This document shows, one piece after another, positions 389 through 64,000 of a stretch of DNA of 64,000 bases. The stretch is from positions 3,399,001 to 3,463,000 of the forward strand of contig CP126206.1 of assembly GCA_030272155.1 (NCBI GenBank). Direction: 5' to 3'. Within the stretch, counting starts at the first letter, position 1, and each line of letters starts with the position of its first letter. The DNA comes from Tetradesmus obliquus. Taxonomy: Eukaryota > Chlorophyta > Chlorophyceae > Sphaeropleales > Scenedesmaceae. The notes under the pieces were generated by a model that was not told the DNA's origin, did no database searches, and saw only the letters and a list, made by a program, of their open reading frames with translations. Both the position numbers and the translations under genes were made by a program.

Positions 389-436
389 TGAACCCCGTTG
401 CAGGTGCTTCAGGGCATGCTGTGGGTGCTATGCCTC
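389..436 (+). repeat. Partial copy of acceptor and start of first visible oxygenase exon
   Basis: The stretch carries a CAG acceptor followed by a diverged version of the exon at 543 (GTGCTTCAGGGCATGCTGTG). It breaks off after about 30 exon bases. It lies in the intron about 150 bp upstream of the exon it copies. Confidence 0.6.
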
Positions 437-466
437 ACAGCAACTGCTGCATTGGCACCAACTTTC

Positions 467-510
<44 letters not shown>

Positions 511-542
511 GCCTAAACTCTCAACCCTGAACCCTGCTGCAG

Positions 543-850
543 GTGCTGCAGGGCATGCTGTGGGTGTTTGCTGACTCATCTCCTGAGGGATGGGCGGAAG
601 CCACAGCAGCAGACGGCACGCCAGGTGAGCCCTCCACACGCCACACCATCTGCAACCTAGGCCATGTTGCACTGTACATGGAGAAGTGTTGACGGCCTAC
701 CCATGATGTAGCTACCCGGAAACAGACATGTTGCAGAGTGCATTGGTGTTTGCTGAATCTTCACTCGCATGAGGCACTTGCACAAATCATGTACTGCATT
801 TCCCACTTATCATTAGTTTTCAAACTGTGCAAACTGCGTGTTCCTGCTGC

Positions 851-898
<48 letters not shown>

Positions 899-2744
899 AG
901 CGCCCCCGGCTGCTGCTTCCTCCGAATTGACCCAGCAGGGCTGGGAGATCAAGAGCCCCTGGTGCCAGCGCGACGTGCCGCTCAGCTTTGACATCTTACT
1001 GGAGAACATGACAGACCCTGCACACGTGCCCCAGTCACACCATGGCGTCGTGGTGAGTGTGCTCTCGTATGTTGAATAGTGTTTTTTTGCGCAGACACTA
1101 TGACACATCTGTGCAATGAAGATCTTTCTGGGTCTTTTCCGCTGCTTGGGCTGAAAGTCAAGATCCCTGGTTCCAGCGCGGCGTGCCGTTCAGCTTTGAT
1201 TCCTTGCTTCTTGCTGGCGAACGTGGCACGCCCCGGACGCGTGCCCTAGTCACGCCGTGGCGTCGTGGTGGGTGCCGTTCTTGCTTTTGCGCTGACACGT
1301 GTGGTTGCATTACTGCTGGAAGGAATGTTGCAGGGTGACCTGATGTGTGTTTCCTTTGCGCAGGGTGACCGCGAGAGTGACCAGCGCATGACAATCCAGA
1401 TGACGACACCTGTCACCAAGGCAGGCTTTGGCAGCCTGGTGTCACCAGCGGCTGCATTAGCTGGCAGGGGCGACTATGAAGTGTCGTACACGGCACCCTG
1501 CCTGGTCAAGTAAGTGTCTCGCACACTGATTTTGTTTTCTTCATTTCAACTCAGTGTTGGTGAACAAAAGTGATACGTGGCTGGTTCAGGCCAACGCGAC
1601 CTGTCTTACATGGCACCCTGCTTTGCCAAAAGCATGATTAAAAATGCGTGCTGCCCATAAAATGTGCAGCATGCACAGCCAGGCTTTGGCAGCCTGGTGT
1701 CACCCGTGGTTGCGTTGGCTGGCAGGGGTCACTAGAAGTGTCCTACACGGCACCCTGCCTGGTCAAGTGAGTATGAACGCTTGAAGCTGCTTGCGCTATG
1801 TGTGTGGGGTTTCGCCTGATGTCACCAGCGGCTGCATTGGCTGGCAGGGGTCACTATGAAGTGTCCTACACGGCACCATGCCTGGTCAAGTGAGTGTACA
1901 TGAGCATAAACACTTCAATGCTGCTCGCGCTTTCTATATTTGGTTACGCCTGGTGTCACCCGCGGCTGCATTGGCTGGCAGGGGTCACTATGAAGTGTCC
2001 TACACGGCACCATGCCTGGTCAAGTGAGTGTACATGAGCATAAACGCTTCAATGCTGCTCGCGCTTTCTGTATTTGGTTACGCCTGGTGTCACCCGCGGT
2101 TGCATTGGCTGGCAGGGGTCACTATGAAGTGTCCTACACGGCACCATGCCTGGTCAAGTGAGTGTACATGAGCATAAACACTTCAATGCTGCTCGCGCTT
2201 TTTGTTTGTGGTTACGCTTGGTGTTACCTGCGGCTGCTTTGGCTGGCAGGGGCGATTACAAGGTGTCTTACACCGCACCATGCTTGGTCAAGTGAGTGTG
2301 AACGCTTCCACTGCTGCTTGCGTTAGTGGTGGTACTCTTGGTGTCACCTGCGGCAGAGGTAGCGGGCATGGTGACTACAAAGTGCGGTACTCGGCACCCT
2401 GCCTGGTCAATTGAGGATGAAAGCTTCAGTGCTGCTTGCGCTGTTTGTGTTTGGTTGCACCTGGTGTCACTAGCGTCTGCCTTGGCTAGCAGGGGCGACT
2501 ACGAAGTGTCCTACACGGCACCCTGCCTGGTCAAGTGAGTGTGTTTGGTCGGATCGTATCGTGTATTTTGCAGTGCTGGTCACCTTATGTGATGCTATAT
2601 GAAGTACCATCAGAACAACGGAGTGAGGAATGACGCAGCTGCACTTGCACACCAATCCTGTTGCACACTTGCCTAAAAGGACTACGGACACAGCAGGACG
2701 CCATCTCACATTGCTTGCCTCTCTCTTGAACTGCACTGCTGCTG

Positions 2745-2829
<85 letters not shown>

Positions 2830-3546
2830 AGGTACCAGTTCCCTGGCCCCACCATGCTGCTGTACGCATCGCCTAGCGCCAAGGGCTGGAGCCGTGTGGT
2901 GATGACTTTCGTGGGTCCACCTGACAGCAAGCAGTCACGACCCGTCACGCCGCAGCTGCCGCCTGCGCTCAACTGGTAAGAGAGATATTCCAGCACAATG
3001 TTGAGGCTGATGAATCAGCATCATGTGGATGCCTACAGCTTCTAAAGGGTGGGCTTTTGAGCACTGCAGCAGCAGGAAGCTGTTTTGGTTTGTTATGTTC
3101 GCAGTGAATCAAGTCCACTGATCTGCTGACACTGGATCAACAAGTTTGCAGTGAATCTGCTGACACTGGATCAACAAGTTCGCAGTGAATCTGCTGACAC
3201 TGGATCACAAGTTCGCAGTGAATCTGCTGACACTGGATCAACAAGTCCGCAGTGAATTAAGTCCACTGATCTGCTGACACTGGATCAACAGCAACTCAAA
3301 CTCAGATGCTGCTATCGCCTCTGCTGCCTGCAGGTTCATTGACAATGTTGTCCAGCGCTTCCCTGCGCTGCAGCGTGCGCTGAACCGCGACTCGTCGACA
3401 CAACCATTGCCGACGCTGCCGCTGCTGCTGCTGCTGCTGCTGCTGCCACTGCTGCTGCGGCTGCAAATTCATCATCAACGTGGTCGAGTGCTTCCGTATG
3501 GTGCAGCACGCGCTGAACCGCAACTCGTCAACACAACCATTGCTGA

Positions 3547-3582
<36 letters not shown>

Positions 3583-5476
3583 TGCTGCTGCCTGCAGGTT
3601 CATCGACAATGTGGTTGAGCGCTTCCCTGCGCTGCAGCACGCGCTCAACCGCAATGCAATCATTGATGGCGACACTTACTTCATGCACGCCTCGGTAAGT
3701 GGCGCTCTGTGGCACCTGTGGCGACAGCACTGAGCACTGGGCACTCTGTCATATTTGTTATGTTCTCATTTTTTGAAAGTCCTCAGCCTGGCGTCATTGA
3801 TAGGGCCCATTGTGGAGACACCTACTTCATGCACGCCTCGGTGAGTGGTGCTGCCTTGCAGAATTCCGCTAGCTGACCTTTACAGCCCTGTTTACAGCGC
3901 TCAGCACTGTCAGTGTAACCCAACAAACCATGAAGCGAGCGCTGCTAGAAGCCCAGAAGCCCAGAAGCTCTTTCGCATGCGCAGGAGCGCACGCTGTATG
4001 AGCGCGGCAACCACACCTCCTGAGCAGGCAGTACTACATGCCCGCAGCACACAATAGCTCCCCAACCCAACAGAAAATGTCCTGCTGCAATGCTTTTGCA
4101 TACGGCCACACGCTGCTTGAGCTGGGCAGCCACACTCCAGCATGTTTTTTCGTGTGTGCCCTGAACCCCGTCTTGCCCTGCTGCTGTTTCTTTGTCCTCT
4201 ATTACTTGTTGCAGGAGCGCACGCTGTATGAGCGCGGCAATCAAACCTCTTGGAGCAGGCAGTACTGCATGCCCGCATCACATAAACGAAACTGCCCCAA
4301 ACCAACACGCCTTGCTGCTGTGCTGCCCCGTAGGGCCGCACACTGCTTGAGCGGGGCAACCACACTCCAACAGTTATGTATGCCCTGACCTCATCTTGTT
4401 TTGCTGCTGTTTGTCACATTGGATTGTTGCAGGAGCGCACTCTGTACGAGCGGGGCAACCACACATCCTGGAGCAGGCAGTACTGCTTGATTATAATGTT
4501 TGTTGCTGTCTTAAACTGCTGCACAGGAGCGCACGCTGTACGAGCGCGGCAACCACACCTCTTGAAGCAGGCAGTAAATCCTCACATTAGCTGCACTGAT
4601 ATGCCGAAACCTCTCTGTTGTGTCTTTTCTGCAGGAGCGCACACTCTACGAGCGCGGCAACCACACCTCCTGGAGCCGGCAGTACTACATGCCGGCAGCA
4701 GCAGACGCAGCAGTGATGTCTTGGCGCAAATGGATCGACAAATTTGGCAGCAATCTGCCGGTGCTGCCGAGCAGTGCGGCGGACCTGCCGCCGATGATGG
4801 CACGGGAGCAGGTCTTTGACAGGTGGGTTTGGGTGTATTTCAGCGTCCCCTGTTACACTGTTACTTCTGTACTTTAGCCTAACGTGTTCTATCCCAGGTT
4901 GTGAGTGATTGTGATTTATTCGGGTGCAAGGGCTTGTATGGTGGCCTGGTGCAAAGGGATTGACAAGTTTGGCAGTCTGCCGGTGCTGCTGAGCAGTGTG
5001 GCTGACCTGCCGCCGATGATGACACGGGAGCAGGTGTTTGACAGGTGGGCGCTGGCTTCACTTCTGTTACCCTGTTGCTTTAGCCTCGCGCTTGCTGTCT
5101 TAGAGGTATAAGGTTGCGAGTTGTTTTGTGTGTTGTTTTGGGCTGCCAGCCTGTGCTTCAGTGCAGGCGCTTGGCACAGCGCCAAAATGTGTGTGTTGTG
5201 TTTTGAAGCGCCTTGCCCAATATTTATTATTACTGTTGAATAAACATATATTTATTATTGTTTTTGATTGTTTACTTATCTATTATTATTTTATATATAT
5301 TATTGTTATTATCTAATAACAGTATTACAATATTCATCAAACGCAGGTACAACCAGCACACCAAGGACTGCCCGCACTGCAAGGCTGCGCTGCGCAACAC
5401 AGAGCTCGCCATCGGGCTACTGGCCATCCTCGGAGCAGTAGCAGCAGGCGCGCTGGTTGTCGCTGCTGTCAATGCG

Positions 5477-5512
<36 letters not shown>

Positions 5513-5665
5513 GGGTCGACCGGAGGGCTGCTGCCGCTGGGCGCTGCGGGCAAGCTGGCAGCAGCAGCGGCGGCTGTTGCTGCTGCTGCTGGCGCTGCTG
5601 TGGCTGGTCTGCTGAAGTTTAGGCAGCTGTTTATCTTCAATGATTATGTGCATGCAGGGCATTGA
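543..5665 (+). CDS. Pheophorbide a oxygenase-family Rieske oxygenase, C-terminal part (gene begins before window)
   Basis: Seven exons join in phase: 543-624, 901-1052, 1364-1509, 2832-2975, 3598-3694, 4635-4822, 5347-5665, giving 375 residues. The Rieske cluster itself must lie upstream of the window. Exon 1 reads QGMLWVFADSSPEGW, as after the Rieske domain of PAO/TIC55/PTC52 proteins. Exon 2 holds the mononuclear-iron motif ENMTDPAHVPQSHH (E-x3-D-x2-H-x4-H). Exon 6 has WRKWIDKFG and the exon 6/7 junction RYNQHTKDCPHC, the C-terminal CxxC of PAO-type members. The last exon has two hydrophobic, Ala-rich segments and ends FIFNDYVHAGH, the usual family end. Members are chloroplast-membrane oxygenases of chlorophyll breakdown or protein import; which subgroup this is I cannot tell. 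Nearly every exon has intronic partial copies, listed separately, so the exact exon choice (above all exon 3) is uncertain. Confidence 0.75.
1158..1260 (+). repeat. Decayed copy of oxygenase exon 2
   Basis: The segment matches exon 2 (about 955-1052) over the region coding for the SPWCQRDVPLSFD and HVPQSHHGVV parts. It has several substitutions and length changes that destroy the iron motif and the reading frame. It sits in the intron directly after the true exon and keeps the following GTGGTGGGT donor-like sequence. Confidence 0.65.
1680..2535 (+). repeat. Seven tandem copies of oxygenase exon 3 with its splice donor
   Basis: After the exon at 1364-1509, seven copies of its 3' half (the part ending in YEVSYTAPCLVK) follow at about 1680-1769, 1808-1890, 1948-2025, 2086-2159, 2211-2294, 2336-2410 and 2458-2535. 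Spacing is roughly 125-140 bp. Most keep the GTCAA|GTGAGT donor; the sixth has lost it. Early copies have a one- or two-base deletion (GGGGTCACTATGAAG instead of GGGGCGACTATGAAG) that changes the frame, while the fifth and seventh are intact in frame. None has a convincing acceptor of its own. Confidence 0.85.
2734..2830 (+). repeat. (CTG)n run ending in a splice acceptor
   Basis: About 31 CTG units, with one CTA near the start, run directly into the CAG acceptor of the oxygenase exon at 2832. The run therefore supplies the pyrimidine-rich tract of this intron. Confidence 0.95.
3333..3842 (+). repeat. Partial copies of oxygenase exon 5
   Basis: The exon at 3598-3694 starts with GTTCATCGACAATGTGGTTG. 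Two upstream copies of acceptor plus about 65 exon bases lie at about 3333-3400 and 3466-3535, each followed by its own short CTG run. A copy of the exon's 3' end with donor (GACACCTACTTCATGCACGC, then TCGGTGAGT) lies downstream at about 3818-3842. Confidence 0.8.
3985..4575 (+). repeat. Five partial copies of oxygenase exon 6, 5' half
   Basis: The exon at 4635 begins GAGCGCACACTCTACGAGCG. Copies of this first 50-60 bases lie at about 3985-4035, 4215-4270, 4335-4372 (strongly decayed), 4433-4488 and 4528-4575. Most keep a preceding CAG acceptor. None extends into the second half of the exon. Confidence 0.85.
4939..5044 (+). repeat. Copy of oxygenase exon 6, 3' half with donor
   Basis: This block repeats the part of exon 6 that codes for WRKWIDKFG to EQVFDR, with one residue deleted and several substitutions, and keeps the donor GACAG|GTGGGC. 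It lies about 115 bp after the real exon end. Confidence 0.8.
5215..5345 (+). other. AT-rich segment of the last oxygenase intron
   Basis: About 130 bp made almost entirely of A and T (TTATTATT and TATATAT runs) ends at the acceptor of exon 7. It contrasts sharply with the GC-rich surroundings and with the CTG-type intron ends elsewhere. I see no terminal repeats, so its origin is unknown. Confidence 0.7.
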
Positions 5666-5869: not shown

Positions 5870-6346
5870 TGCCGCTGGGCGCTGCGGGCTAGCTGGCAGC
5901 AGCAGCGGCTGGCGCTGCTGCTGCTGCTGGCGCTGGTGTGGCTGGTCTGCTGAAGTTCAGGCAGTTGTTTATCTTTATTGATTACGTGCATGGGGGCACT
6001 GCATGTGTGTCCAAGGTTATCAGATCAAAGCAGCCGTGTTCCAAGGTCATCAGATCAAAGCAGCCAAGTCCTGCTGCGCGGCTGTTGCTGGTGGAGCAAT
6101 TGTTGACTAAGAGATCGCAAGCTGTTGTAAACGGAGAGAGTGCAGTGTGATATATGAGCGTGCGAGCAAATTGTTGTGTGCCGCTGATGCATTGGAAAAT
6201 CGCTGTGCTGCTGCTGCCGCTGCTGCTGCTGCTGCTGCGGCGGCGGCGGCGGCGGCGGCGGCGGCTGCTGCTGCTGCTGCTGTGGCTGGGCTGCTGATCT
6301 GCAGGCGCCTGTTCATATTCAATGACCAAGTGCATGCAGGGCACTG
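5870..6346 (+). repeat. Two downstream copies of the oxygenase terminal exon
   Basis: After the stop at 5665 the 3' part of the last exon recurs at about 5870-5998 and 6208-6346. Both recall the Ala-rich stretch and the KFRQLFIF-x-DYVHAGH end. The first has TTTATTGATTACGTGCATGG and has lost the stop. The second reads ICRRLFIFNDQVHAGH followed by TGA. They could act as alternative 3' ends or be inert. Confidence 0.75.
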
Positions 6347-7280
6347 ATGTTGCTGAGCTGCTTATGGATATTTTTATATATGTTTCTTATGGTGTTATTG
6401 ACAAGCGGCACCTTGCCTGCGGTGTAGCGTGGGCTAGTGTGTGAGGTTTGGTCACCTGCTGCGTGCCACAGTTGCTGTAGGATGTACGTGAACTTGCTGA
6501 AGTGTGGTAGCAGTTGCTTTTCTCTTGAACTTGCCAATTGTGCTGAGATGCATTCAGGTTGGTGTGAAATTGTTGTGCTGCAGGCATAGCTCTTCTGTAG
6601 ATACATGGCATGCCATGATTTTACGTAAAACGACGTACTCTAGACAAAGCCAGGATCCCGAAGGACGCTGGCTATGTGGGGGCGGTTGCGGCACACTGAT
6701 TCCGTGCCTGGAACATGATTTTTGTCCGAGCTCACGTGCTTATTCTGTAGTGCGCATTTGAGTGGGTGATTCAGCTGCAAAATGACAGTGTTCAGCTGTG
6801 CCGCTTGCGCTTGTGGTGTGCTGCATGCTGCGTCATTTGCAGTTGACTGAAAAACAGGTTGGATCTGCATGGCCGGATACATTGGTGTAACAACATTGTC
6901 GGCAGATTGACATGTCAGCAGACACTCACAAGCTCGAATCTCTGTAACATGCTGCTCATGTGAACTGAGTATGGCCTCATGCCGTCACTGCACCGTGAAG
7001 TTGGGGTTCTGCTAGGTTACTGGTGTCTAGGACCATTGCTGCTTTCCTTGAAAAGGCTTGGGGTGTGCGAAACACTTGCCAACATGATGGTGTAGTGCTG
7101 CTTCTTGTTGCCACTACATCGGGTGCGAGCTGATGGCATAACATGAGGATGATGATGACCGTGCAGTGCACTGGCGGCGCACTGTCATGTGACTTTCCAG
7201 GCCCACACACGAAGCAACCCAACAAGGCTCTGCATACTCCGTATGTGTGTTGCAGCCAGCATTACATGCATTTACTGTAG
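6347..7280. other. No recognisable gene
   Basis: This intergenic stretch has only short open frames without coding character. I see no repeats or RNA genes in it. Confidence 0.4.
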
Positions 7281-8162: not shown

Positions 8163-9614
8163 GCGCAACCGCATCTCCATTGTGGCGCTGTGCAGGATGC
8201 GTGGACGGGGAAGTGAGCTGCACGAATGACCAGGGAGCTAACAAGAGCAAGCAGCAGTCCATCCAGAAGCAGTGTCAGGTGCGCACAGCTGGACCCGGCC
8301 CCTCGCAGCAACACTACCGAATAACCATCGCCACATGTTGCAGCATAATTAGTTTGGTTGGCATGCTGGGGAAGAGAGCAACATGGTACCAGCAGCAGCA
8401 GCGCTTGCATCAGCGTACAAGGCTTGCACAAAACTCTGGCACGCTAATGCTTTGCTTCACTGCTTTGATGCAGTACAATGTATCCCTTTTGTTGGTTGGG
8501 TGTTTTCTGCAAAGGTTCTGCCAGTGCACACCATCAATAAAATGCTTGTTACAATTCCTGCTGTGTTCCTTCCTGCAGGCCGTTGGCTGTGGCACTGTTC
8601 TGACCAAGGCCTACTGCGTGAAGAAGAAGCTGTGTGAGAAGCACTTGAAGGTGAATACACTGCCGCTGACTTAAGTAACAGTGTTATAACACTATAACAT
8701 GACAGATACAGCACAGGTGCCCTGCCAGCGGCTTGCAGCAGCTGGCAGCATAATTGCAAGTCGCGTGCAAGCTCCATTGTGTAAGGAGTTGCAGCAACCT
8801 TTTGTTTTTAAAGCGCACTGCAACATCTTTGCTGACTCACATGCCGAGATGTGGCCGCCGCATCATGTGCTGCTGTGCATCTGTACATCAGCTATTATGC
8901 CGCTAAGCAATCGAACAGTAACAGCCCGATGACACCATACGGTGTAAAGACATTCACGCCATGTGTGGTGTGGTGTGCTGTGCTGGCGATGCAGGTTGAA
9001 GCAATCCAGATCATCGGCAAGCAGGGCTTGTGGCGCTTCTGCCAGCAGTGCGGCAAGCTGGAAGATCTGTCGGCCTTTGCAGGCGACAAACGGTGCGTTT
9101 GAACGTAACATGTTACATTTGTAACGCAATTTTCTTTTCTGCTTGATTTGTGTGGTACGGGGAAGGTCTGTGGCGCTTCTGCCAGCAGTGCAGCAAGCTG
9201 GAAGAGCTGTCGGCACTCGCAGGAGACAAGAGGTGCGCGACCAAGATAACATGTGACCTGTTACATTTGTTACAATTTTGTCTTGTTAAAAAAAAAAAGG
9301 TTTTTGTACGGAACAATGGACCCAACCTGCCGCATTTGATTATTTGGCTATCCTGCAGGAGCTGCCGGCTAGGCCTCCAGAAGAAGCGAGAGCAGTCGGC
9401 GCTGCTCACAGCACAGAAGCGCCAGCAGCAGCAGCTGCACAAGCAGCGGCAGCAGCAGCAGGCCTGCAGCGCCCCTGCTGCATGCTCCTGCGGCGGTGCA
9501 GCAGCAGCAGTGGCCGCCGCAGCAGCAGCAGCAGCTGGCACGCCACACTCCTGCCACTTCAGCAGCACCCCAGCACTGCATACCATGCACACAGGCTGTC
9601 ATATGACCTGGCAG

Positions 9615-9649
<35 letters not shown>

Positions 9650-9937: not shown

Positions 9938-9969
<32 letters not shown>

Positions 9970-18401: not shown

Positions 18402-18434
<33 letters not shown>

Positions 18435-19528: not shown

Positions 19529-19569
<41 letters not shown>

Positions 19570-19707: not shown

Positions 19708-19738
<31 letters not shown>

Positions 19739-19990: not shown

Positions 19991-20023
<33 letters not shown>

Positions 20024-38945: not shown

Positions 38946-39064
38946 TGCGCGCCGCCACTAGCCCCCGCCGCCGCTGCTGCTGCTGCGGCTGCACATGTCC
39001 TGCCACAGCACCATGCCCAGGGTCAGCGGTAATCCTGCTGCTGCTGCTGCTGCTACTCCTGCTG

Positions 39065-42374: not shown

Positions 42375-42408
<34 letters not shown>

Positions 42409-49511: not shown

Positions 49512-49543
<32 letters not shown>

Positions 49544-51404: not shown

Positions 51405-51436
<32 letters not shown>

Positions 51437-54400
51437 CTGCCTGGCAGCCCTGCCCTGTGTGGTGTCACCGGCTTGCCTGTATTAGCCCGCAGCCGCTTCA
51501 AACCCCCAGTAACTGCTCCACCTCCTCCCGCTGCTGCTGCTGCTGCTGCTGCGGCAGTGCCTACAGGCACAGCAGCCTCCCCTAAGCACAGCGCATCCAT
51601 CTCCTGCCGGCCCCGCTTGCCGCGCGCTGCTGCTGCTGCTGCGCTGCTCATAGGGGACCCCAGCACCCCGCCGCTGCTGCCCTCCAGCTGCTGCTGCTGC
51701 TGCTGTGTGAGTCCCAACAGCGGCGGCGTCCCGCGCTGCCCAGCAGCACCTCGCTGCAGCGCCGCAACCCCCCCAGCACCCACACTACTACCGCGCAGGT
51801 ACGGCGACAGCCGCTGCTGCTGCTGCTGCTGCTGCTCGCGCAGCTGCTGCTGGTTGAGGCTTGCCTCAGACCTACTGGCCCGTGTGGCACCCACGCTGCC
51901 GGCGGGCCGGCGCTTTGCGAATGCTGCGAGGCCGAGCCTTTCACGCAGCTGCTTTGCGTAATGCACGCCGGCGTACCACAGCAGCTGCCGCGCCGGCCCT
52001 GCAAAGCGAGGGGGCCGGATCTTCAAAGCGAGCTCCATCTGCTGCGCGCGTGCTGCATCGCCCAGCGCATAAGGGTGCCAGAAGAAGCAGCCGACTGCGA
52101 GGGAGTCGGAGGGGGTTGCGCTTGCGTAGAACCAGCCGCAGGGGATGACCAAAGCTTGGGACGCCTTGACCTGCAAGGCAGGGAGCAGCAGTAGCACAGT
52201 GACGACAGAGGTTGAGGTGGTGGAGAAGCAGCCGACTGCGAGAGAGTCAGCAGGGGTTCGCACTTGTGCTGCCCGCGATACGCCGCGCCAGGTGAGAAAC
52301 AGCCCCACTGCGCTCCCCCGCACACAACAACGGCAAACACATCACAACTTTGCAAACACCCCACCACTGCGCACCTCCACTTTTACTGCGCCCTCCGCAT
52401 AATCCGCCAGGAAGCACTCCGCCAGCAAGGTCTCCTCGTCCTGCGCTGCCGGACACACAGCAGGCATGCAACCTCACTCACATACGAAAACAATAGCAGC
52501 AGCAGCAGCAGCAGCATAATGCAACACCCAGCGCACCTCCACTTTGACTGCCCCCTCCGCATAGTCCGCCAGGAAGCACTCCGCCAGCAAGTTCTCCTGG
52601 CCCTGCGCCGCGCGCGTCACGCCGCGCCAGGTGAGGAACAGCCGCCTGTTGCGCTGCGTGGGCGGCAGCAGCAGCAGCACCTTGCTGCCGTGCAGCACGT
52701 ACAGCCAGCTGGCAGCGCCGCCCGGCGCCGTGCGGAAGTCCGTGTAACAATCCTGCAAGCACAACACAGTGCAACCAACAGTACACAGCATCGTGTTAGC
52801 CAAAGGATGTGTTGGTTCATGTCCTAAAAGGTTCGACTTCATTTAATGCACGCTGTGAAGAGGCAGGCGGGCAGGCAGGCAGGCAGCAGCACCTTGCTGC
52901 CGTGCAGCACGTACAGCTAGCTGGCAGCGCCACCCGGCGCAGTGCGGAAGTCCGTGTAGCAATCCTGCAAGCGCAGCGCAAATGTACATGACATTGTGTC
53001 AGCCCAAGAATGTGCTGGCTCATGTATTCCAGACCGGTCCAATTTCACTCATGCGCGCGTCAAGAGGCAGGCAGGCGGGCAGGCAGGCAGCAGCACCTTG
53101 CTGCCGTGCAGCACGTACAGCCAGCTGGCAGCGCCACCCGGCGCAGTGCGGAAGTCCGTGTAGCAATCCTGCAAGCGCAGCGCAAATGTACATGACATTG
53201 TGTCAGCCCAAGAATGTGCTGGCTCATGTATTCCAGACCGGTCCAATTTCACTCATGCGCGCGTCAAGAGGCAGGCAGGCGGGCAGGCAGGCAGCAGCAC
53301 CTTGCTGCCGTGCAGCACGTACAGCCAGCTGGCAGCGCCACCCGGCGCAGTGCGGAAGTCCGTGTAGCAATCCTGCAAGCGCAGCGCAAATGTACATGAC
53401 ATTGTGTCAGCCCAAGAATGTGCTGGCTCATGTATTCCATACCGGTCCAATTTCACTCATGCGCGCGTCAAGAGGCAGGCAGGCGGGCAGGCAGGCAGCA
53501 GCACCTTGCTGCCGTGCAGCACGTACAGCCAGCTGGCAGCGCCGCCTGGCGCGGTGCGGAAGTCTGTGTAGCAATCCTGCAAGTGCAGCGCATGCAACAA
53601 CACATGACAGCGTGTTGTACGGCCCGTGTCTGTGTAAGCTCATGTATTCACAGACCAGTCCAACTGGACGACTGCGCGCGGTGAAAACGCAGGCAGCCAG
53701 GCAACGCCTGCTTTCAATGGGGCAAAGTGTGGCGTCCACAGCACAAAATATTGAGCGGAACTCCTGTCAAGGGCACGACGAACAGCTGCTCACCTTTGGC
53801 GTCATCTGCAGGTGCAGCGTGTCAGCAGGCTTGATCTCCATATAGATGCTATGTTTGCTGCTGTCCTGCCACGCAACCACCACGCCACTCAACTACTAGA
53901 TTGACCTGTCATACCGCGCCTCACCTTTGGCGTCATCTGCAGGTGCAGCGTGTCAGCAGGCTTGATCTCCAAATGGATCAAATGCCTGCCAGCAGCAGCG
54001 CCGCCAAACCCCTCCCCAAGCGCAGCAGCAGCTGCTGCAGCCGCAGCCTCGCCAGCGCTTCCCTCGCCCATCCCTCCTGCTGCTGCTACGCCAGCTCCAG
54101 CGCCGCCTAACCCTGCTGCTGCTGATGCAGGGTGTGCCGCCGCGCTGCCGAATACTGCATTCGCATCCCGCAGCACCGGCCGCACTAGGTCCACGCTCTG
54201 TACAGCTGGCGGAGGGTGTATGTGCTGCGTGAGGCTACTGCCGTGCAGCGGCAGGCACTCGCCATCTAACAGGCGCTGCGCCTGCTCTGGAGAGATGCCC
54301 TGGCAGGCCCGCGGCGGCTGGTACACGTTGGTGCGCGCGCTGCAGGGATAGGATGGGAGCGGGGGGTGGCAGCAAGGTGCAGAGGGCGGACAGCAGCAGA

Positions 54401-56072
54401 GGAAGGCCAGGAGTGAGTGAGTGGGTGAGTGAGTGAGCGGGCACAGCAGGGATGGAGAAAACAAAATCGTGCTACCAAGTGTATGTATGTGTGTACCCAG
54501 GGCACTGCATAGCACAGGATGGATGACCTGTGCTAGTGGTGCCTCCGGTGCAGAGTGCAGCGCACAGCCACACAGCAACCAGCGATGCAGGCAGCAGCGC
54601 TGTCACTTGCCAAAGGCAATGAAATGTGCTAATTCTGGAGTCCATTGACCAGAAAACACTTGCGTGGAGAACACCATGTTGACCCCCGTTCAAAACAAAC
54701 GAAACGAACAGCACAACCCCACAAGCCAGTGGTCTTGCCATCCACCACTGCAGCCTGTTTCGTGGGCTACTGCAGTGTTGCAGAGTGTGCATGCATACAA
54801 GCCGTATGCCAAGGCACAGAGGCAAGTGCTGCAACACCTTCCAGCTCTTGACAAGAACCGCCAGCCACCCTAACAAATGCCTCAACATGTGCGCATGCCC
54901 GTAACGCAATATAGCATTCCCAGGCCAAGCCCAGGGGGCATGCATAATGCACAGAGGACGATAGTGTGCACGTGTTAATAACACACGGCTGCCTGCCCTG
55001 CTTTCGGCTGGCAACTGCCGGCCCTCACCAGCGCGCATGGCAGTGGGGACGTGAATTCCACTGGAGCATGGCGCCTGGGTGTGCGGTTCAGAACCCCTGA
55101 GTTTCAGGGCCGCGGCAAAACCCCGGGGCTGGGCTCGGCGTGCTTTGGAGGCGTGCCAACGGGCGCTCAGCCGCTGTTGCCGACTGCCGCAACTGGGCAG
55201 TGGTGGTGAGTCTCAGGGCGAACGTGCCTCCTGTGTGACACACCCACGCACACATATGTGTGTGTGCAAGGGCTGAGGGCTGAGAGGTTTGCGCTCTCTA
55301 CACCGCTGGCTGTGCAGCTGCGCGCGGCCAGACGCGCGTGTGCGTAGGCTGGAGATGTGCGTATGCATGCAGGCGGCTTGCAGGAAAGACCGCTGCCCCC
55401 AGCCGTCGCACATGTGCCAGGTGCTAGTGCATTGGCTGGCCGTGCTGTGTCCGGTTGTCAGGCCACAGATAGCATAGGCACCGCGGATGCTGCTGTTGCG
55501 GCAGCAACTGCAGCGGCGCAGCAGCAGCAACGCTACGCCAGGGCAGCAACTCACCTGGCACCAGCAGCGCAGTGCACTTGCAAGCTGCGCCCTGTTCACA
55601 CACCAACTTCAGTGATACTCACAACACCACACACCAGCACCTGGATGCAGGCTGCCACAGGGTGCCACCACGGCTACAGCACACGCACGGGAACACAGCG
55701 CACCGCGCGGCGCTGCACCCGCGCAAGCACAACCCAACCACCACTCAGCTATCAGCTTTTTTATGCGCACGCTTGAACGCCTGCATGCAAAATACAATCT
55801 TTCTGTCAACACCTGCCCAGGCACCCACGCTGCTCACCCTGCTCCCTGCAGCACCAGCACCCTGCAGCTGTCCACAACTTCTCCTTCGTCATCATCCTCA
55901 TCGTCATAGCCGCCAATGCCAGCCCTGCCCGGCGGCGGGCCGCCGCCATGCGCTGTCTGCGGCTTGGCCATGCGCGTGGCAGCGTCCTGGCGCGCGTGCC
56001 AGTAGGTGCACCACTGCGAGAGCGTCCAGGCGGGCCCAGGTTTCTGCTTCACCACGTCCCAGGTGTCCACCT

Positions 56073-56105
<33 letters not shown>

Positions 56106-56588
56106 CAACAGCCAGGTTGGCATGGTTAGTGCAACAGCAGGTGCACCACTGCGACAGCGTCCAGGCAGGCCCAGGCTTCTGCTTCACCACGTCCCAGGTG
56201 TCCACCTGCAGCAGCAGCAGCAGCAGCAGCAGCACAACAGCCAGATTGGCATGGTTAGTGCAACAGCAGGTGCACCACTGCGACAGCGTCCAGGCAGGCC
56301 CAGGTTTCTGCTTCACCACGTCCCAGGTGTCCACCTGCAGCAGCAGCAGCAGCAGCAGCAGCACAACAGCCAGATTGGCATGGTTAGTGCAACAGCAGGT
56401 GCACCACTGCGACAGCGTCCAGGCAGGCCCAGGCTTCTGCTTCACCACGTCCCAGGTGTCCACCTGCAGCAGCAGCAGCAGCAGCACAACAGCCAGATTG
56501 GCATGGTTAGTGCAACAGCAGGTGCACCACTGCGAGAGCGTCCAGGCAGGCCCGGGCTTCTGCTTCACCACGTCCCAGGTGTCCACCT

Positions 56589-56621
<33 letters not shown>

Positions 56622-58115
56622 CCGCCAAAACAGGCATGTTGAGTGTGCAAGTTGAACGCATAGTGAGCCACTGATGACACTAGGCCACAATGGCATGAGC
56701 ATTTGGCAGGCAGCAGTGCTTTCGAGAGTGGCGAGTGCCCGACTGCCAGCTCCTCAGGCAAACAGACTGTCGTTGCTGCGGGGCGCTGCTGGTGCCAGGT
56801 TGCTGCTGGTGCCTGCTGCTTTATGTCCATGCGTGCGGTCGGCACCCTATGCAGCTTTGCTGCATGCATCAGCAACCCTCTGTGCTGGCTAGTCAAAAAA
56901 TATGACAAGTGTGATTCACAGTACTGCTGCTACTGGCAGTTGCTCCATGCATTGATGGCAGACGGCCCAAAGGCATGCATGGCCATCCCTGCAGCTGCTC
57001 CTGCAAGCTGAAGCAGCTGCCACCATCTGCCTACGAATGCTGTGCTGCAATACATGATAAGATAGCAGGTAATGCTGCCGCCCAAATGCAAGTAAACACT
57101 GGGCAGCTGCAGCAGCTGCTGCTGACAAGCGCATGGCCCACTGCACAAGATGCATGCACAGCCTAGGGCTACCATATGCTGCGTTGCTCCTCATGTTGCC
57201 TTGCCAGCTGCAACTGCTGATGGTCCTGCAAGGGACGGTTGACTTCTCCTGCAACTGATGCCGCTGCTGCTGCAGGCACACACCTTGCGCTCGCCTCCAA
57301 TGTAGTCTGCCAGCACATCAACTGATATGCTGTGCACGTCAGGCCACATGAGGCCCATCTGTGGGTTCTCATTGAACCTGTCTCCTTTGACCAGCACAGG
57401 CTCCTTCAGGCCGCTGCTGCGGATGTAGTTTGCTGTGAAGCCGCCTGGCCGAATCACCTGCAGGAGAGCAGCACAAAAGGGCGGGAGGAAACCAGGATGA
57501 GATCTATCTGGGCTGCACCAAGGGTTGCTGCCGGCTGATTACGGAGTTTAAGCAGTTGAACCATCGGATTGAAGCTGCATGAGGCACATCAACACTAGTG
57601 TGGAAAAGTGCCTTGCCTCACAGGCCACCCTGGGAGTTGTGCTGCTCTGTCCCAACCGCGCCTGGCCTGCCTCAACAACACACCTGCAGCTTGTCAGCGT
57701 TTGGAGAGTTCCATCCAATCAGCCTCTTAGCAAGGCGGGCGGCGATCCCAGCGTCATCTGCGAGAGCGCCAGGCCAACTCGTGTCAGCACGGTCGGGGGC
57801 AGGGGCGGCCTGCCACATTGCATACTAGCAATTTTCCGGAAAACAAAAACGTTGGATAACTAAGCTTTTCAACATCAATCAGCGGCCGGTCAGGGCAGGT
57901 CGTGCGAACCATTGTCTGCTTTCACAAGCTCCACCATTGACGCTCCAACGGAGCGAATGCGGCCACGATTCCCTACCAGCCAACCATAACTACATGTAGC
58001 AGCCACGCCAGACAGGTCCGAGTGCAGCAGCTGAGAGAACAAGGCACTCACCGCACTCCGTGTGCTGCCGAGAAAGGCCAGCAACCACATCTTCTCCTTC
58101 ACTCAAACAAGCCAT
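47707..58115 (-). CDS. KDM2/JHDM1-type JmjC protein without iron ligands, with giant Gln/Ala tail
   Basis: Exons 58115-58052, 57757-57684, 57457-57284, 56070-55838, 54339-53925, 52752-52537 and 52170-47707 join in phase to 1879 residues. GGFTANYIRSSGLKEPVLVK and VDTWDVVKQKPGPAWTLSQW match the pre-JmjC part of KDM2/PHF8 proteins. The JmjC core follows: DCYTDFRTAPGGAASWLYVL, GSKVLLLLPPTQRNR, then ALVIPCGWFYASATPSDSLA. Where active KDM2 enzymes have H-x-D (TDFHIDFGG) and a second His (GWIHA), this protein has R-x-A and Tyr. The oxoglutarate-contact Thr and Lys are kept. So it should be a catalytically dead chromatin protein, though this is by alignment in the head. The remaining roughly 1400 residues are Gln/Ala/Pro/Ser-rich without a recognised domain. 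No PHD or CxxC finger was seen. The intron 54340-55837 is long and could hide an exon. Confidence 0.75.
52200..52450 (-). repeat. Copies of JmjC exon 6 and 7 parts in intron 6
   Basis: About 52450-52372 copies the exon 6 end (LLAECFLADYAEGAVKVE, with donor). About 52290-52218 has two fused pieces: one from the middle of exon 6 (LTWRGVSRAAQ) and one from exon 7 (DSLAVGCF). The fusion leaves a continuous open frame into exon 7, so long-ORF finders will extend the gene wrongly to 52323. Confidence 0.8.
52860..53590 (-). repeat. Four copies of JmjC exon 6 start, three in a 204-bp tandem
   Basis: Each copy has the acceptor CTTGCAG|GATTGCTACACGG-like start plus about 70 exon bases (CYTDFRTAPGGAASWLYVLH). 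They end at about 52967, 53171, 53375 and 53579. The units between about 52982 and 53593 are almost base-identical with a 204-bp period; the GACCGG/TACCGG change is the one clear difference between two of them. All copies preserve the R-x-A version of the iron motif. Confidence 0.95.
53794..53845 (-). repeat. Copy of JmjC exon 5 end with donor
   Basis: The minus strand reads MEIKPADTLHLQMTPK followed by GTGAGC, a copy of LEIKPADTLHLQMTPK at the end of exon 54339-53925. It lies in the following intron. Confidence 0.85.
56141..56586 (-). repeat. Four copies of JmjC exon 4 start
   Basis: Acceptor plus 65 exon bases (VDTWDVVKQKPGPAWTLSQW) recur with upstream ends at 56205, 56334, 56463 and 56586, against the real exon at 56070. 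Periods are 135, 129, 129 and 123 bp and differ mainly by whole CAG triplets. On the gene's strand each copy is preceded by (CTG)n. Confidence 0.95.
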
Positions 58116-58995: not shown

Positions 58996-61196
58996 TCTGT
59001 TGCTGGAACCTTGGAGCTGTATGCGGTCTCAGATCTGCACACCGACTACGCAGCTAATCTAGAGTGGGTGCAGCAGCTGGACATGACAACCAGGGGCAAC
59101 AGCAGCAGCAGCAGCAGCACCAGCAGCACCAGCAGGGTGCTCATTGTTGCTGGTGATGTGTCAGATGACATAGGCATCCTCAGGTGAGCAGATCAATCAA
59201 TGAATACACGTTTTTCCTAGCAAGAGGTGAACCCAGAAAGGGAGCCACTCCCAAACCACCAAAGGTGATGCCTGACCAGTGAGTGCAAACCCACTGCTGG
59301 TGCTGCTGCTACTGGTGCTAGCAAAGTGCTTGGCCTGACACGGATTTCCTGCAAGCGGTCAGAGCACATCATGTTGCTGCATCTGCTTACCTGCACCTGC
59401 TCGTGCACTGCGCCTGCACCTGCTCCGTCATTACGCTTGCTGCCGCTCCTGCACTGCTGCTGCTGCTGCAGGGCTACCAGGGGCGCTCACAGTGAAGTTC
59501 ACCGTGGATGTTGCTGCATCCTTTCAGCTGCACCTGCACCTGCTGCTGCTGCACCTGCATTGCAGGGCGACTTCAGAGGCCCTCACAGCCGAATGTGCCC
59601 TGCGCCTGTTTCAATCATGTCGTGTGTCATATAGCCATATGCGCCTGCACCTGCTCCTGCAATGCAGGGCCACCCTGGAGGCCCTCATAGCCAAGTTCAC
59701 CGCAGAAGTTGCTGCATCCCTTTCACCTGCACCTGCACCTGCTTCTGCACTGCTCCTGCGCTGCAGGGCCACCCTGGAGGCCCTCACAGCCAACTTCACT
59801 GCAGATGTTGCTGCATGCTTTCACCTTCCTGCACCTGCTCCTGCATCGCTGCTGCACCTGCATTGCTTCTGCTGCTACAGGGCGACCTTAGAGGACCTCA
59901 CAGCCAAGTGTGCCCTGCGCCTGTTTCAATCATGTCGTGTGTCTTATATTTACATGCGGCTGCACCTGCTCCTGCATTGCAGGGCAACCTTAGAGGCCCT
60001 CACAGCCAAGTTCACTGCAGTCGCCTTTGTGCCAGGCAACCATGAGCTTTGGGTGAGGCGTGGTGTGCTAGCACAGCACTTTCCATTTTGGAATGCCAAT
60101 ACCAACACCAATACTAAATACCAGTGCCAACGCACAGGACGGGCCTGCCTCAGGCACTAGCTAGCGAGCCGATATGCCGCTGTTGAGGGTTGCAGTCATC
60201 ACCCAATGCCGCAGCAGCAGAGTCGCTAGTCAAGCGCTGAACGCATTGCCAGCTTGTACGCTTTGCTGCTGGCATTTCATGAGCAGCATTTGCTTTGCAA
60301 ACGCTGCACGCTGCTTGCTCAAGCACTTATGTGTGTTCCTCAAGGCAGCAGCCAGCAGCTAGCGCGGCCGCAGCATATTTTTTGTTAGTAACAGTGTTAC
60401 ACACGTTGAATGACACAAACATGCAGGTCAAGGGCGCAACCGAGCACGCCGCATCGCTGCGCAACGGCGGTGCCACAGACTCGATTGCAAAGCTGCATGC
60501 CGTGCTGCAACTGTGTGAAGATTTGGGAGTGATCACACAACCTATGCAGCTAGGAGGGCTGCTGCTGGTGCCGCTGCTGGCCTGGCACCATGCGGTGAGT
60601 GTTTTGCAATTACAGCAAGCTTTTTCGAGGTGACACATGTGTAACACAATGCGATTGTTGATCTAGGGCAAGCAGCATGCACTAGCAGCCAATGTGTGTG
60701 TGGTCAAGCAGCAGTATCAGCAGCAGACTCTTGGCAAAAGCTGCATGCTGTGCTGCAACTGTGTGAAGAGTTGGGAGTGATCACGCAACCTGCACAGCTG
60801 GGAGGGCTGCTGCTGGTGCCGCTGCTGGCCTGGCACCATGCGGTGAGTGCTTTTGCCTTAACAGCAAGGTGGTTTCAGGTGACTTGTGTGTGATACATTA
60901 CAGTTGTTGTGTTGTACGCTCAGGTAGGTCAGCAGCATGTACTGGCAGCTGGCATGTGTCGTCAAGCAGCAGTAAGAGCAGCAGGCTCGGTAGCAAAGCT
61001 GCATGCTGTGCTCCAGCTCTGCGAAAAAGTGGGAGTGATCACGCAACCTGCACAGCTGGGAGGGCTGCTGCTGGTGCCGTTGCGGTGATTGGGCCTGCAA
61101 CCACTGAACTGCTTCAGCTGCTGCAGTATGTTGCAGCAGTCACCAGGAACTTGGTGGCGGAATGCAGTGTGTGCTAGCTGGTAGAGGATGCTGTCA

Positions 61197-61230
<34 letters not shown>

Positions 61231-61461
61231 GCTGTGTGACTATCTAGGGGTGATCACACACAACCTGCACAGCTGGGAGGGCTGCTGCTGGTGCCGCTGC
61301 TGGCCTGGCACCATGCGGTGAGTGCTTTGAAGCCATGCACACAGCAAGGTGTTCTGATGAGAATTGTACTCAAATTACTCGATTCACAGTTGGTATAGTT
61401 GCAGCATTCGACAGTCACTCATTGAGGTCGCGCAATATGTGCTAGCAACTGAGGGCGTGCG

Positions 61462-61533
<72 letters not shown>

Positions 61534-63079
61534 AGAGTTTTGACAGGGAATCTGACATAGAAGCCATACCCAGGGCAAGCGCGATGACCATTGCGGTGAG
61601 CCGTTGCTGCAAACGCCACAACAGCTGCATCATCATCATCATCATGTTACCATTTAAGCCATAGCAACGTCGCCATCGGCCACAACAGCTGCATGTGGAA
61701 CTGCAATAGGAGCCCCTACGGATTCAAAAATAAGCACATGCGATGCACAGCAAAGCCATAGACAATCACTCAAGCCACCGGCTGCGCAAGCGTTGACTGC
61801 TTTTTGCTTGCAGGACTATGCAGCCTGCAAGTGGCCCCATGACTTCCCTAATGCTGGCCAGCTGGGCAGCAGTGACACTGCGGCGTGGTTTGATGCAGCA
61901 AACGAGTCACTGCAGCAGCCGGGCTGGTCACTGCTGCAGCAGGCACTGCAAGGTGGGCTGGTACAGATGCTTTCCGTGTTTTGCAGGTTCCCTGGGTTGA
62001 CATTGCATGCACCTTGTGGTACAAGTGATGCAAAGTAGCGGCAGTTATTTTTCAGGGCCACTGCTGTGACGCACCACTGCCCGCCTGGTGGCCAGCTAGG
62101 CAGTAGTGACACTGCAGCATGGTTTGATGCACTGCATTGCTGGGCAAACGAGACGCTGCAGCAGCCGGGCTGGTCGCTGCTGCAGCAGGCACTGCAAGGT
62201 GAGTTGAGCTGTTGATGGGTGTTGGGGTTCTTGACTGTCGGCATGTCTGACTGTGACACGTGTTACAAACGATTTCAAGGTTGTGGCAATGGCACAGTTT
62301 TGCCACATGGGGCTGTGCTGTGCCAGTTTCGCACTCATTCCTGTTTGTGGAAATTTCAACGGGCGTTCGCCGCTCTGTCTCATCCTCATTTGTGGGCCGC
62401 CTCACTCTTTCTCTGCAGGCGAACCCAGGCTGGACACTGTGAGCTTCTCACACTTCCTGCCACATCAGCACCTGCTGCCGGAGAAGCGCATGCTGTCCTA
62501 CCCCAACCTGGTGAGAGCTGCTGGTGTGAAGTTTGCTGTGAACATTGCTGTGAACACTGCTATGAACTTTTTTGCCACATCAGCACCTGCTGTCATGAAA
62601 GTGCATGCTGTCACACCCCGACCTGATGAGAACTCCTAGCCGGAAACTCAGGTGTGAAAGTTGCTGTGAACTTTTGCCACATCAGCACCTGCTGCCGGAG
62701 AAGCGCATGCTGTCCTACCCCAACCTGGTGAGAGTTGCTGGTTGGGGAACGGCTGTGAGCTCTGGCAGAAAATATAAAGGACTTGCAGCGCATTGATGAC
62801 ACAACATACAATGCGGCGCTGATTCCAGCTCCTGCAGTACAATGCGACAATTTCTGCCGTTACAACACTGAGAGCTGCTGGAAGAAAACAATACACGAGT
62901 TGCAGTTGATGACAATGAGCAATGCGGCAGCTGATGACAGCGTGTGCCAAATTTTGCATGACCCTGATTGTATGCTGCCTTGCGTTGCCTTTGTGTTGGT
63001 TCTGCTGGCAATGTGCAATCGGCTGCCAGGCTGCATGCGCATCCAACAGCGGGCTGTCTGCACGTCCTTTAAAACCCAC

Positions 63080-63163
<84 letters not shown>

Positions 63164-64000
63164 AGGCCAAGGCTGTGGGCTCAGACTTCCTCTGGCAGCG
63201 GCTGCAGCAGCTGCAGCCGCACATGCACGTGTTTGGCCACAGCCACTTTGCATGGGACATGGAGCTGCAAGGTGAGGCTGTATGATTCATGGTTCTGGGC
63301 CAGCAGGGTCAGCGTGAGGATGTTGTGTTTGGGCACAGCCAGTTTGTGCTTGGCCACAGCCGCTTTTCATGGGAATGGAGCTGCAGCCGCAAATGCACGT
63401 TTTGGCCATAGCCACTTTGCCTGGGACATGGAGCTGCAAGGTGAGGCTGATGGATTAGGATTGAGGCTTCAGGTTTGGGCTCTGTGTGTGGCCGCGGTCA
63501 CTTTGTGTTTGGGCCATAGCCCCTTCGCATATGACAGAGAGCTGCAAGGTGAGGCTGTAGGAGTCAAATGTAGAGTTCAGGGTCGCAGCTCTGTGTGTGG
63601 CAAATGCACTTGCTTGGCCACAGTCACTTTGCTTGGGACATGGAGCTGCAAGGTGAGGCTGCAACACACTGCTCTATCGTTATTGGTGTAGGTTGATCAG
63701 CGGCAGTTGCCTCACGTACAACTCATGCGGCTGTCCACCTTGCACTTGCCCTGCTGCACGCGGCAAAGTCATAAAATTGCCCGCTGAAAAGCATGTGTCA
63801 TCAAGCAAGTGGCCACATCCTGTGCATGCAGAACATCCACACTAAAAAACACGAATGCTCTGTTACAATGCAGGCATCAGATGCGTGCAGGCGCCGCTGT
63901 GCTACCCGGCAGAGCGGCTGCACCGGCTCAAGTCTGTCATACTGCACAACACACTTCCTGCAAGCAGCAGCAGCAGCAGTGGGAGTGACAAGAATGGCCA
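58996..64000 (+). CDS. Calcineurin-like metallophosphoesterase (3' end beyond window)
   Basis: Exons 58996-59183, 59983-60052, 60427-60594, 61536-61595, 61814-61952, 62419-62510, 63166-63271 and 63874 onward join in phase. The five metal-site blocks are in order: ELYAVSDLHTD (D-x-H), VLIVAGDVSD (GD), VPGNHELW (GNHE), LLVPLLAWHH, and HVFGHSHFAWD (GHSH). SFSHFLPHQHLLPEKRMLSY and GIRCVQAPLCYPAERLHRLK match the plant and algal cytosolic-type relatives of this superfamily, which hydrolyse phosphate esters; the substrate is not predictable. Start codon is not located (see 58116-58995). A poly-Ser stretch (SSSSSSTSSTS) interrupts the first exon. The last exon runs into a Ser-rich stretch at the window end. 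The gene is complete in all catalytic blocks, so likely active. Confidence 0.8.
59470..59960 (+). repeat. Five copies of phosphoesterase exon 2 start
   Basis: The real exon at 59983 begins with TLEALTAKFTA after its acceptor. Versions lie at about 59470 (decayed), 59568, 59666, 59765 and 59879, each after CTGCA(T)TGCAG or similar. Two copies share an extra tail (CALRLFQSCRVSY), so the array grew partly by duplicating pairs. A frame of 222 codons is open across much of the array. Confidence 0.9.
60732..61319 (+). repeat. Three copies of phosphoesterase exon 3 3' part with donor
   Basis: KLHAVLQLCEELGVITQP and GGLLLVPLLAWHHA, real at 60427-60594, recur at about 60732-60843, 60985-61085 and 61222-61319. 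The first is intact with donor. The second lacks the final LAWHHA. The third has lost the start of the unit and is out of frame at first. Confidence 0.9.
61461..61533 (+). repeat. (CTG)n run ending in a splice acceptor
   Basis: About 24 CTG units lead straight into TGCAG, the acceptor of the exon at 61536. Confidence 0.95.
62085..62730 (+). repeat. Copies of phosphoesterase exons 5 and 6
   Basis: About 62085-62201 copies the exon 5 end (GQLGSSDTAAWFDA to SLLQQALQ) with donor and an inserted LHCW. About 62675-62730 is a perfect copy of the exon 6 end (PHQHLLPEKRMLSYPNL) with donor. A decayed version is at about 62577-62632. Confidence 0.9.
63080..63163 (+). repeat. (CTG)n run before phosphoesterase exon 7
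   Basis: Two CTG blocks interrupted by CTCTG reach to the CTCAG acceptor of the exon at 63166. Confidence 0.95.
63340..63660 (+). repeat. Copies of phosphoesterase exon 7 3' part with donor
   Basis: The block coding for FGHSHFAWDMELQ and its GTGAGG donor is repeated at about 63370-63452, 63505-63556 and 63607-63657. Copies vary in the metal motif (GHSPFAYDRELQ and ATVTLLGTW-type readings in other frames). An extra GHSQFVLGHSRF piece precedes at about 63335-63370. Confidence 0.85.

Follow-up and report, generated by a model that had tools for sequence, protein, structure and literature searches.

Duplicated exon ends beside splice junctions in the introns of Tetradesmus obliquus

Introduction

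Why should introns carry, over and over, the ends of the very exons that they separate? The question is raised by a stretch of 64,000 nucleotides of the Tetradesmus obliquus OEZ86 assembly (G000:C16:3399001-3463000; genome of 104.7 Mb in 17 contigs), referred to below as the window, for which an original prediction had described parts of exons copied in tandem, together with the adjoining splice site, into neighbouring introns or past gene ends. Our analysis centred on four genes of the window, those for pheophorbide a oxygenase (PaO), Nse4, a JmjC-domain protein and a metallophosphoesterase (MPE), and on ten CCT chaperonin loci of the same genome. This genome has undergone many direct duplications of DNA straddling exon-intron junctions, with the copies placed beside their source, and introns seem to be built partly from decaying copies of the genes that they interrupt.

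Gene models and comparison loci

The four window genes were modelled by aligning proteins with introns allowed (spliced alignment) and with GT-AG junctions. The queries were two named T. obliquus OEZ86 proteins (P0006 for PaO and P0003 for Nse4), the unnamed window-encoded protein P0004 for MPE, and a P0016/P0017 composite for the JmjC gene, in whose model the 2.4-kb gap at 48555-50948 is doubtful. Three weakly aligned exons, the first of PaO and the first two of MPE, were excluded from the counts. Because the four genes had been noticed partly through their copies, CCT loci were added irrespective of repeats. This set comprised the ten loci with at least three exon matches in a Pfam search, a locus with one match being omitted; short pieces of three of the ten had been inspected earlier. 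CCT exon positions are those of profile matches, from which four copy-like matches were removed; exons are missing from this list, and the "introns" between matches may contain some of them. A further sample consisted of 20 other 10-kb stretches of the genome, two of them satellite-like, leaving 18 loci.

Results and Discussion

In a comparison of the window with itself, with simple repeats masked, 170 of 172 same-strand repeat pairs were separated by less than 4 kb; they formed 29 clusters. Local repeats covered about 28% of the window, and minus-strand matches were nearly absent (5 rows). As predicted, the copies are local and not dispersed. The four modelled genes were touched by 33 repeat families, of which 30 contained exon sequence and 3 were intron-only. 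A donor or an acceptor was reached within 12 nt in 23 of the 30 exon-containing families, the 3' end of the gene in 2, and 5 carried an exon-interior tag; among the 30, none was tagged with both ends of one exon. Two layouts recur. Acceptor-type copies hold 25-80 nt from the start of an exon, with an AG ahead of them, and lie upstream of the full exon, while donor-type copies hold 25-130 nt from the exon's end, with a GT behind them, and lie downstream. We inspected 45 such junction copies base by base.

The copies are of different ages. Tandem arrays in the window have units of 35, 129, 134, 150 and 204 bp, and the arrays at 52664-53592, 56000-56621 and 39899-40305 match at 92-94%, with some units differing by only 0-1% and hence recent, in line with the continuing process that had been proposed. 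The window gave no Rfam match at the gathering threshold. Among the 20 comparison stretches, four had no near pair and 14 had 2-27 pairs; the two satellite-like ones reached 119 and 79 near pairs along with many far and inverted matches. The latter (L013 and L028) have a repeat coverage of 78-81% and a lower fraction of G and C (0.48-0.49), and are probably satellite or centromere-like DNA.

A more sensitive test compared the terminal 45 nt of each exon with the adjacent intron, a copy being significant when it beat 40 intron pieces from other genes. Across 14 genes, the adjacent intron held a significant copy for 72 of 142 exon ends, whereas chance would give about 3.5. The CCT genes contributed 50/92 (chance about 2.2), by which the partial-exon copies first noted in the window extend beyond it, and the window genes 22/50 (chance about 1.2). 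The reverse complement of the same introns, used as a control, gave 2/142. When the test was repeated with a new control draw, copies were found on the correct side for 74/142 ends and in the wrong-side intron for 4/114, which bears out the claim that acceptor copies lie upstream and donor copies downstream. The alignment came within 6 nt of the exon end in 65 of the 72 cases, and GT or AG was present at the aligned junction in 49. The assertion that a copy always carries a splice site thus describes most copies and most families, and fails for the exon-interior and gene-end families given above. Copies were mostly spaced at 100-150 nt (33/72), with a second peak at 200-250 nt (14). Since the copies are local, direct and in register, the basic event is a local duplication across the junction.

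Eight of the ten CCT genes carried copies, with per-gene counts from 0/10 and 0/4 up to 11/12. At the level of BLAST, 48 of 80 CCT repeat families touched a profile-matched exon (the four copy-like matches included), although such exons make up only 10-23% of each locus. When one CCT locus was compared with the whole genome, all matches fell in its immediate neighbourhood or in other exons of CCT genes. Repeat coverage was high at exon ends, dipped in the first 15-45 nt of the intron and, on both sides, recovered at about 90-150 nt.

The character of the 45 inspected copies is unlike that expected of neutral copies of the present exons, for which we would expect a nonsynonymous divergence of about half the synonymous one. 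Synonymous divergence from the real exon was 0.18 in the 11 copies whose intron flank is clearly homologous, 0.17 in the 12 with a weakly homologous flank, and 0.25 in the 22 without recognisable flank homology. Nonsynonymous divergence stayed flat at 0.055-0.062 across the three classes and did not climb with synonymous divergence. Over 161 nt, one CCT copy, in L032, has 10 codons with a synonymous difference from its exon and 1 with a nonsynonymous one. In the 23 donor copies, identity at flank positions +1 to +8 was 0.91, 1.00, 0.61, 0.87, 1.00, 0.74, 0.61 and 0.65, and 0.13-0.52 at the listed positions from +9 on; in acceptor copies it was 0.91-1.00 for TGCAG and faded by about position 18. 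This is the profile of functional splice sites, followed by background.

A stop and/or an indel was present in 12 of the 45 copies, 33 having neither over the compared block, and the copies are therefore probably not coding. Stop gains accounted for 7 of 134 nonsynonymous changes, against about 5% expected neutrally, and 19 indels were spread over 8 copies. A splice-site-like profile combined with neutral stops and indels suggests copied ends that were recently functional and then decayed. Changes specific to the copies (26 synonymous, 27 nonsynonymous, 2 stop and 1 unclassified) are confounded by those on the lineage of the real exon. The copies at 40087, 39609, 59668 and 60842 share the intron as well and are plain tandem units. 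Two pairs are mosaic: 60842/61317 differs by 0.01 and 2 indels in the exon part and by 0.17 and 5 indels in the intron part, and 39937/40087 by 0.03 and 0.23, respectively. The pair 1889/2410, in contrast, differs alike in exon (0.23) and intron (0.24).

Introns of the window genes are full of local copies, which makes duplication a general process here: a local copy was found for 55 of 183 intron tiles that are not exon-like, and 120 of 308 intron tiles resembled a flanking exon. Units of about 100-150 nt might accordingly be duplicated at random anywhere and decay neutrally, those crossing a junction surviving as splicing hides them and their exon part remaining recognisable for longer with one partner under selection. 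The direct, local and periodic geometry, the commonness of intron-only repeats (including 153/498 far tiles), the arrays with full-unit homology, and the 32-47% of random 140-220 nt units that cross a junction when placed in three window genes all agree with such a process. The frequency at exon ends, however, exceeds what it yields. In the control-based test, copies were found for 76/138 exon ends, 44/123 exon interiors, 33/114 junction-adjacent intron pieces and the above share of far intron, a ratio of exon end to near intron of 1.9. With equal targets and fixed score limits, and with low-complexity queries and introns outside 330-2600 nt excluded, 56 of 97 exon ends were copied (control rate 0-0.8%) against 18/90, 14/90 and 11/90 of the intron segments 10-55 nt past the junction at successive limits (ratios 2.9, 3.7 and 4.7; Fisher P 1e-7 to 5e-11); far intron gave 62 to 47 of 331 in the CCT genes and 44 to 34 of 126 in the window. 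A stationary model with random 90-170 nt duplications and neutral copies produced ratios of only 1.0-1.4 (companion run 0.97 and 1.08), and of 1.1-2.1 with copies slowed by 50-95%, under assumed unit lengths (90-170 nt), indel ratios and selection on 73% of exon changes and without real intron composition. In an earlier non-stationary simulation, exon ends had fewer copies than near introns at every setting. A decay model moreover expects 53-77% intron-only families, against the 3 of 33 observed at the BLAST threshold, and the nonsynonymous divergence that does not rise with the synonymous one also speaks against it. As the real ratio lies above that of the stationary model, plain duplication is insufficient within the limits of the model, and we consider it doubtful as the origin of the copies. 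The idea that generic duplication plus detection bias explains everything, with which the control-based test and the intron-tile counts had seemed to be in accord, was dropped after the equal-target test and the stationary simulations. To this extent the suspicion in the original prediction that ordinary duplication falls short of this pattern holds; the sidedness does not call for a special system, since tandem duplication simply keeps the functional exon intact.

Could selection instead keep the copies because they serve as alternative splice sites or as pieces of exons? GT or AG is kept in 42 of the 45, the 23 donor copies vary at +3 but never at +2 or +5, most copies are free of stops and indels over the compared block, and exon differences are skewed to synonymous ones. 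The copies are partial, however, no family being tagged with both exon ends; more than a quarter (12/45) hold a stop or an indel, with stop gains near the neutral share; splicing from a downstream donor would run the reading frame into stops, such as the TAA right after the exon ending at 1509; and the annotated proteins behind the models exclude the copies. We regard selective retention as quite unlikely, and the steady supply of proto-exons and the minor isoforms that the original prediction had derived from the copies find no support here, in contrast to its account of the copies themselves, their sidedness, their ages and their association with junctions. Gene conversion between exon and copies, homogenising old arrays and confined to the exon since the introns drifted apart, would account for the two mosaic pairs, in which exon is far more alike than intron, and for a copy at 62675-62742 that is 99% identical to its exon over 68 nt inside an array of about 73%. 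In its simple form, by our reasoning, conversion would initially reset exon and intron alike, without raising the synonymous share; when conversion is roughly mimicked in the model by slowing the copies by 95%, the end-to-near ratio comes to no more than 1.3-1.9; and other pairs, such as 1889/2410, diverge equally in both parts. This, too, is an unlikely origin for the pattern as a whole. An assembly artefact is highly improbable: tandem repeats are a known hazard, but nothing specific points to one, the exon parts of the copies diverge among themselves by as much as about 26%, those in CCT genes lie on 8 different contigs, and a telomere-to-telomere genome of the species is reported, going by a title cited in the accessible part of PMC12633428.

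The reading that we favour, with confidence somewhat short of even, is that the copies are by-products of local recombination, many of them templated from a diverged functional allele. The exon itself continues in use unmodified, with the extra exon end lying within the intron, and most copies would be nonfunctional products of break repair or local recombination. Of the copied ends, many would derive from a diverged functional version and not from the present exon of this chromosome; that version might be an older allele that has been replaced in the meantime or, in a heterozygous diploid, the other haplotype. Recombination would begin in exons, because diverged versions still match there, carry over the exon end, the splice site and the intron of the other version, and finish in non-matching intron. 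The copied ends would thus have been functional until recently in the diverged lineage and have decayed neutrally thereafter. Plain duplication within one haplotype would also take place and account for the copies with a matching intron part. A phased genome of diploid T. obliquus, in which the haplotypes are divergent, is cited in the accessible part of PMC12633428. On this ground, and because one protein occurs in both an OEZ85 and an OEZ86 version, OEZ85 and OEZ86 appear to be the two haplotypes of strain UTEX 3031.

Copying also varied with intron length. None of 10 ends was copied at introns shorter than 250 nt, 0.55 of 2 ends at 250-500 nt and 1.3-1.4 of 2 above 500 nt (Spearman 0.53), a trend that is inflated because short introns offer less room for copies, which tells against the present reading, and in which CCT gaps may conceal exons. 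The lack of copies in the shortest introns is as expected if introns grow by junction duplication. That introns lengthen through junction-bounded copying, driven by exon-started recombination between long-diverged haplotypes and non-homologous resolution in introns, is a more speculative proposal that we hold with low confidence.

Several further observations weigh against the favoured reading. Donor-like motifs near repeat ends, counted independently of gene models, were enriched in the window (24/162, against 14/162 for the reversed motif and 4/162 for the reverse complement) and not in the 18 other loci (24/179, 25/179 and 12/179, respectively); as the motif did no better there than its reversal, no genome-wide claim is based on this test. 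The codon periodicity of mismatches was clear in the four genes (z 5.0, 32 blocks), lower in the rest of the window (z 2.1, 32 blocks) and absent in the 18 loci (z 1.0, 51 blocks), with the two satellite-like loci set apart (z 1.7, 16 blocks), so that part of the local duplication in this genome is not visibly exon-derived. Two CCT genes, L033 (C2, 0/10) and L036 (C8, 0/4), had no exon-end copies. Both have gaps of more than 1.5 kb between exon matches and are yet copy-free; some genes seem far more active in copying than others. Nor are the 45 copies independent of one another: the nine mismatches at donor +3 trace to just three exon ends. Differences between copies comprise 43 synonymous, 32 nonsynonymous and 7 stop changes, where 27% synonymous would be expected neutrally, so the copies may be under some constraint, and the kept splice dinucleotides (42/45) could reflect use of the copies. 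Finally, we infer both the haplotype status of OEZ85 and OEZ86 and the diverged template.

Several known systems share features with these copies. Intragenic minisatellites, or variable number tandem repeats, consist of units, tens to hundreds of bases long, in direct tandem repetition, and here too head-to-tail units above 10 bp occur, some near-identical and so recent. Many families in T. obliquus, however, have only 1-2 copies, diverged spacers and boundaries shared with splice junctions, and for many single copies the likeness lies solely in the 100-150 nt spacing. In plants, the repair of staggered or paired breaks leaves short tandem duplications, which are likewise local, direct and about 100 bp long, but would be expected to show no preference for junctions. 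Introner-like or other transposed elements differ in having related copies across unrelated genes, which are lacking here (2 of 172 window pairs more than 4 kb apart). Tandem genomic duplication is an accepted route of intron gain, in which an AGGT-bearing exonic segment creates a new intron (PMC3443670, accessible part), and cases are given for potato (PMC4974935) and Drosophila (PMC2891723) in the accessible parts of these papers. The present copies resemble it as direct tandem copies of gene segments that include splice-site sequence, with the duplicated part spliced out, and as direct duplications next to their source (72/142 in the own intron against 2/142 in its reverse complement). Unlike in that route, the segments span junctions inside existing introns, at about half of the tested ends; they fall between annotated exons of the four models and not inside an exon where they would create a new intron. 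Tandemly duplicated alternative exons of the Dscam type (PMC3236188, accessible part) also repeat exon sequence within one gene in direct orientation, but are usable whole alternatives, whereas here a single exon end is copied and some frames are broken. Among the literature matches listed, none describes such a frequency and boundary pattern; the T. obliquus telomere-to-telomere paper may hold such a description.

Copies in the individual genes

The last seven exons of the PaO gene (OEZ86_010468) lie on the forward strand at 543..5662 (543-624, 901-1052, 1364-1509, 2832-2975, 3598-3694, 4635-4822 and 5347-5662; spliced alignment of P0006), and all its copies have the same orientation. Exon 543-624 has an acceptor-side copy at 388..427 (junction 404), and exon 901-1052 a donor-side copy at 1148..1274 with 2 stops and 4 indels. 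Seven donor-side copies of exon 1364-1509 fill 1677..2543, with junctions at 1766, 1889, 2023, 2157, 2291, 2410 and 2534. Exon 3598-3694 is flanked by two acceptor-side copies at 3331..3538 (junctions 3334 and 3467) and a donor-side copy at 3808..3852, exon 4635-4822 by four acceptor-side copies at 3978..4576 (junctions 3985, 4215, 4433 and 4527) and a donor-side copy at 4939..5049. Past the gene end, partial copies of the last exon, its end included, are found at 5870..6362.

The Nse4 gene (OEZ86_010473) has six exons on the minus strand at 39068..43006 (spliced alignment of P0003), its copies lying on the same strand. An array at 37765..39205 repeats the 3' end of the last annotated exon, together with CAG/CTG tracts. 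Acceptor-side copies of exon 39068-39347 lie at 39435..39718 (junctions 39495 and 39609). Exon 40237-40376 has two donor-side copies at 39812..40155, which lie in a 150-bp tandem unit with duplication of the full unit, and an acceptor-side copy at 40459..40514. The donor-side copy of exon 41370-41650 at 41232..41315 is 95% identical, its block ending 3 nt past the junction; an acceptor-side copy of this exon lies at 41732..41807, and a donor-side copy of exon 42171-42457 at 41940..42077.

Eight exons were modelled for the JmjC-domain gene (OEZ86_010475; minus strand, 47710..58115; spliced alignment of the P0016/P0017 composite). On this strand, exon 52537-52752 has a donor-side copy at 52369..52449 and four acceptor-side copies at 52884..53588, in units of about 204 bp of which three are almost identical. 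Exon 53925-54339 has a donor-side copy at 53789..53847, and exon 55838-56070 four acceptor-side copies at 56135..56589 in units of about 129 bp with a CAG tract. Copies of the 3' part of the last exon continue beyond the gene end at 46837..47627. Two minisatellites lie in the stretch separating this gene from Nse4, one of 35 bp at 45370-45653 and one of 19 bp at 46122-46296.

The MPE gene (P0004, PF00149; forward strand, 58996..63998; spliced alignment) is cut by the window end and has eight well-supported exons, with all copies on the forward strand. Acceptor-side copies of exon 59983-60052 lie at 59482..59909. Donor-side copies were found for exon 60427-60594 (60717..61367), exon 61814-61952 (one copy, 62086..62201), exon 62419-62510 (two copies, 62573..62742) and exon 63166-63271 (63346..63661, with junctions at 63440 and 63652 and weaker copies at 63346-63385 and near 63550). 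The farther of the two copies of exon 62419-62510 is the 99% identical segment mentioned above, which resembles a recent insertion or a short tract of gene conversion.

At least seven genes had been predicted to show this pattern, and full models extend to four. The same layout was seen in two SBP-like genes on the forward strand, one with a duplicated 3' exon part including its donor (9029..9237), the second with a duplicated 5' exon part including its acceptor (19069..19239). These genes lie about 10 kb apart, at 8144-10406 and 18359-20413, and both resemble SBP protein P0015; the Pfam SBP match is below the cut-off for the first and absent for the second. They are joined by the sole same-strand window matches beyond 4 kb (96 and 100 nt, 76-77%). 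In the kinesin genes, a single array of seven units was inspected.

Dense CTG/CAG tracts occur throughout the window (e.g., 2736-2829, 28548-28609 and 63081-63162), some of them just before acceptors and some within reading frames, where they encode poly-Gln and poly-Ala. Such tracts may be a source of matching ends for duplications. Telomere-like words (CCCTAAA/TTTAGGG and relatives) were seen by eye, uncounted, between copies in introns of L029 and L031 and at about 500-560 of the window.

Conclusion

The lengthening of introns and the differences in intron size between lineages are an old question, and the accessible part of PMC5966456 puts the mean intron length at 462 bp for T. obliquus, whereas four other green algae have means of 230-302 bp. 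Within the 14 genes analysed here, long introns often contain copies of the flanking exons and the shortest contain none, which makes growth by junction duplication directly testable. Gene prediction in this species faces many decoy splice sites. If the template is a diverged haplotype, the copied ends would record past alleles and the behaviour of recombination when only exons match; in that case such alleles would survive as fossils in the exon-end copies, and haplotype divergence would drive the lengthening of introns.

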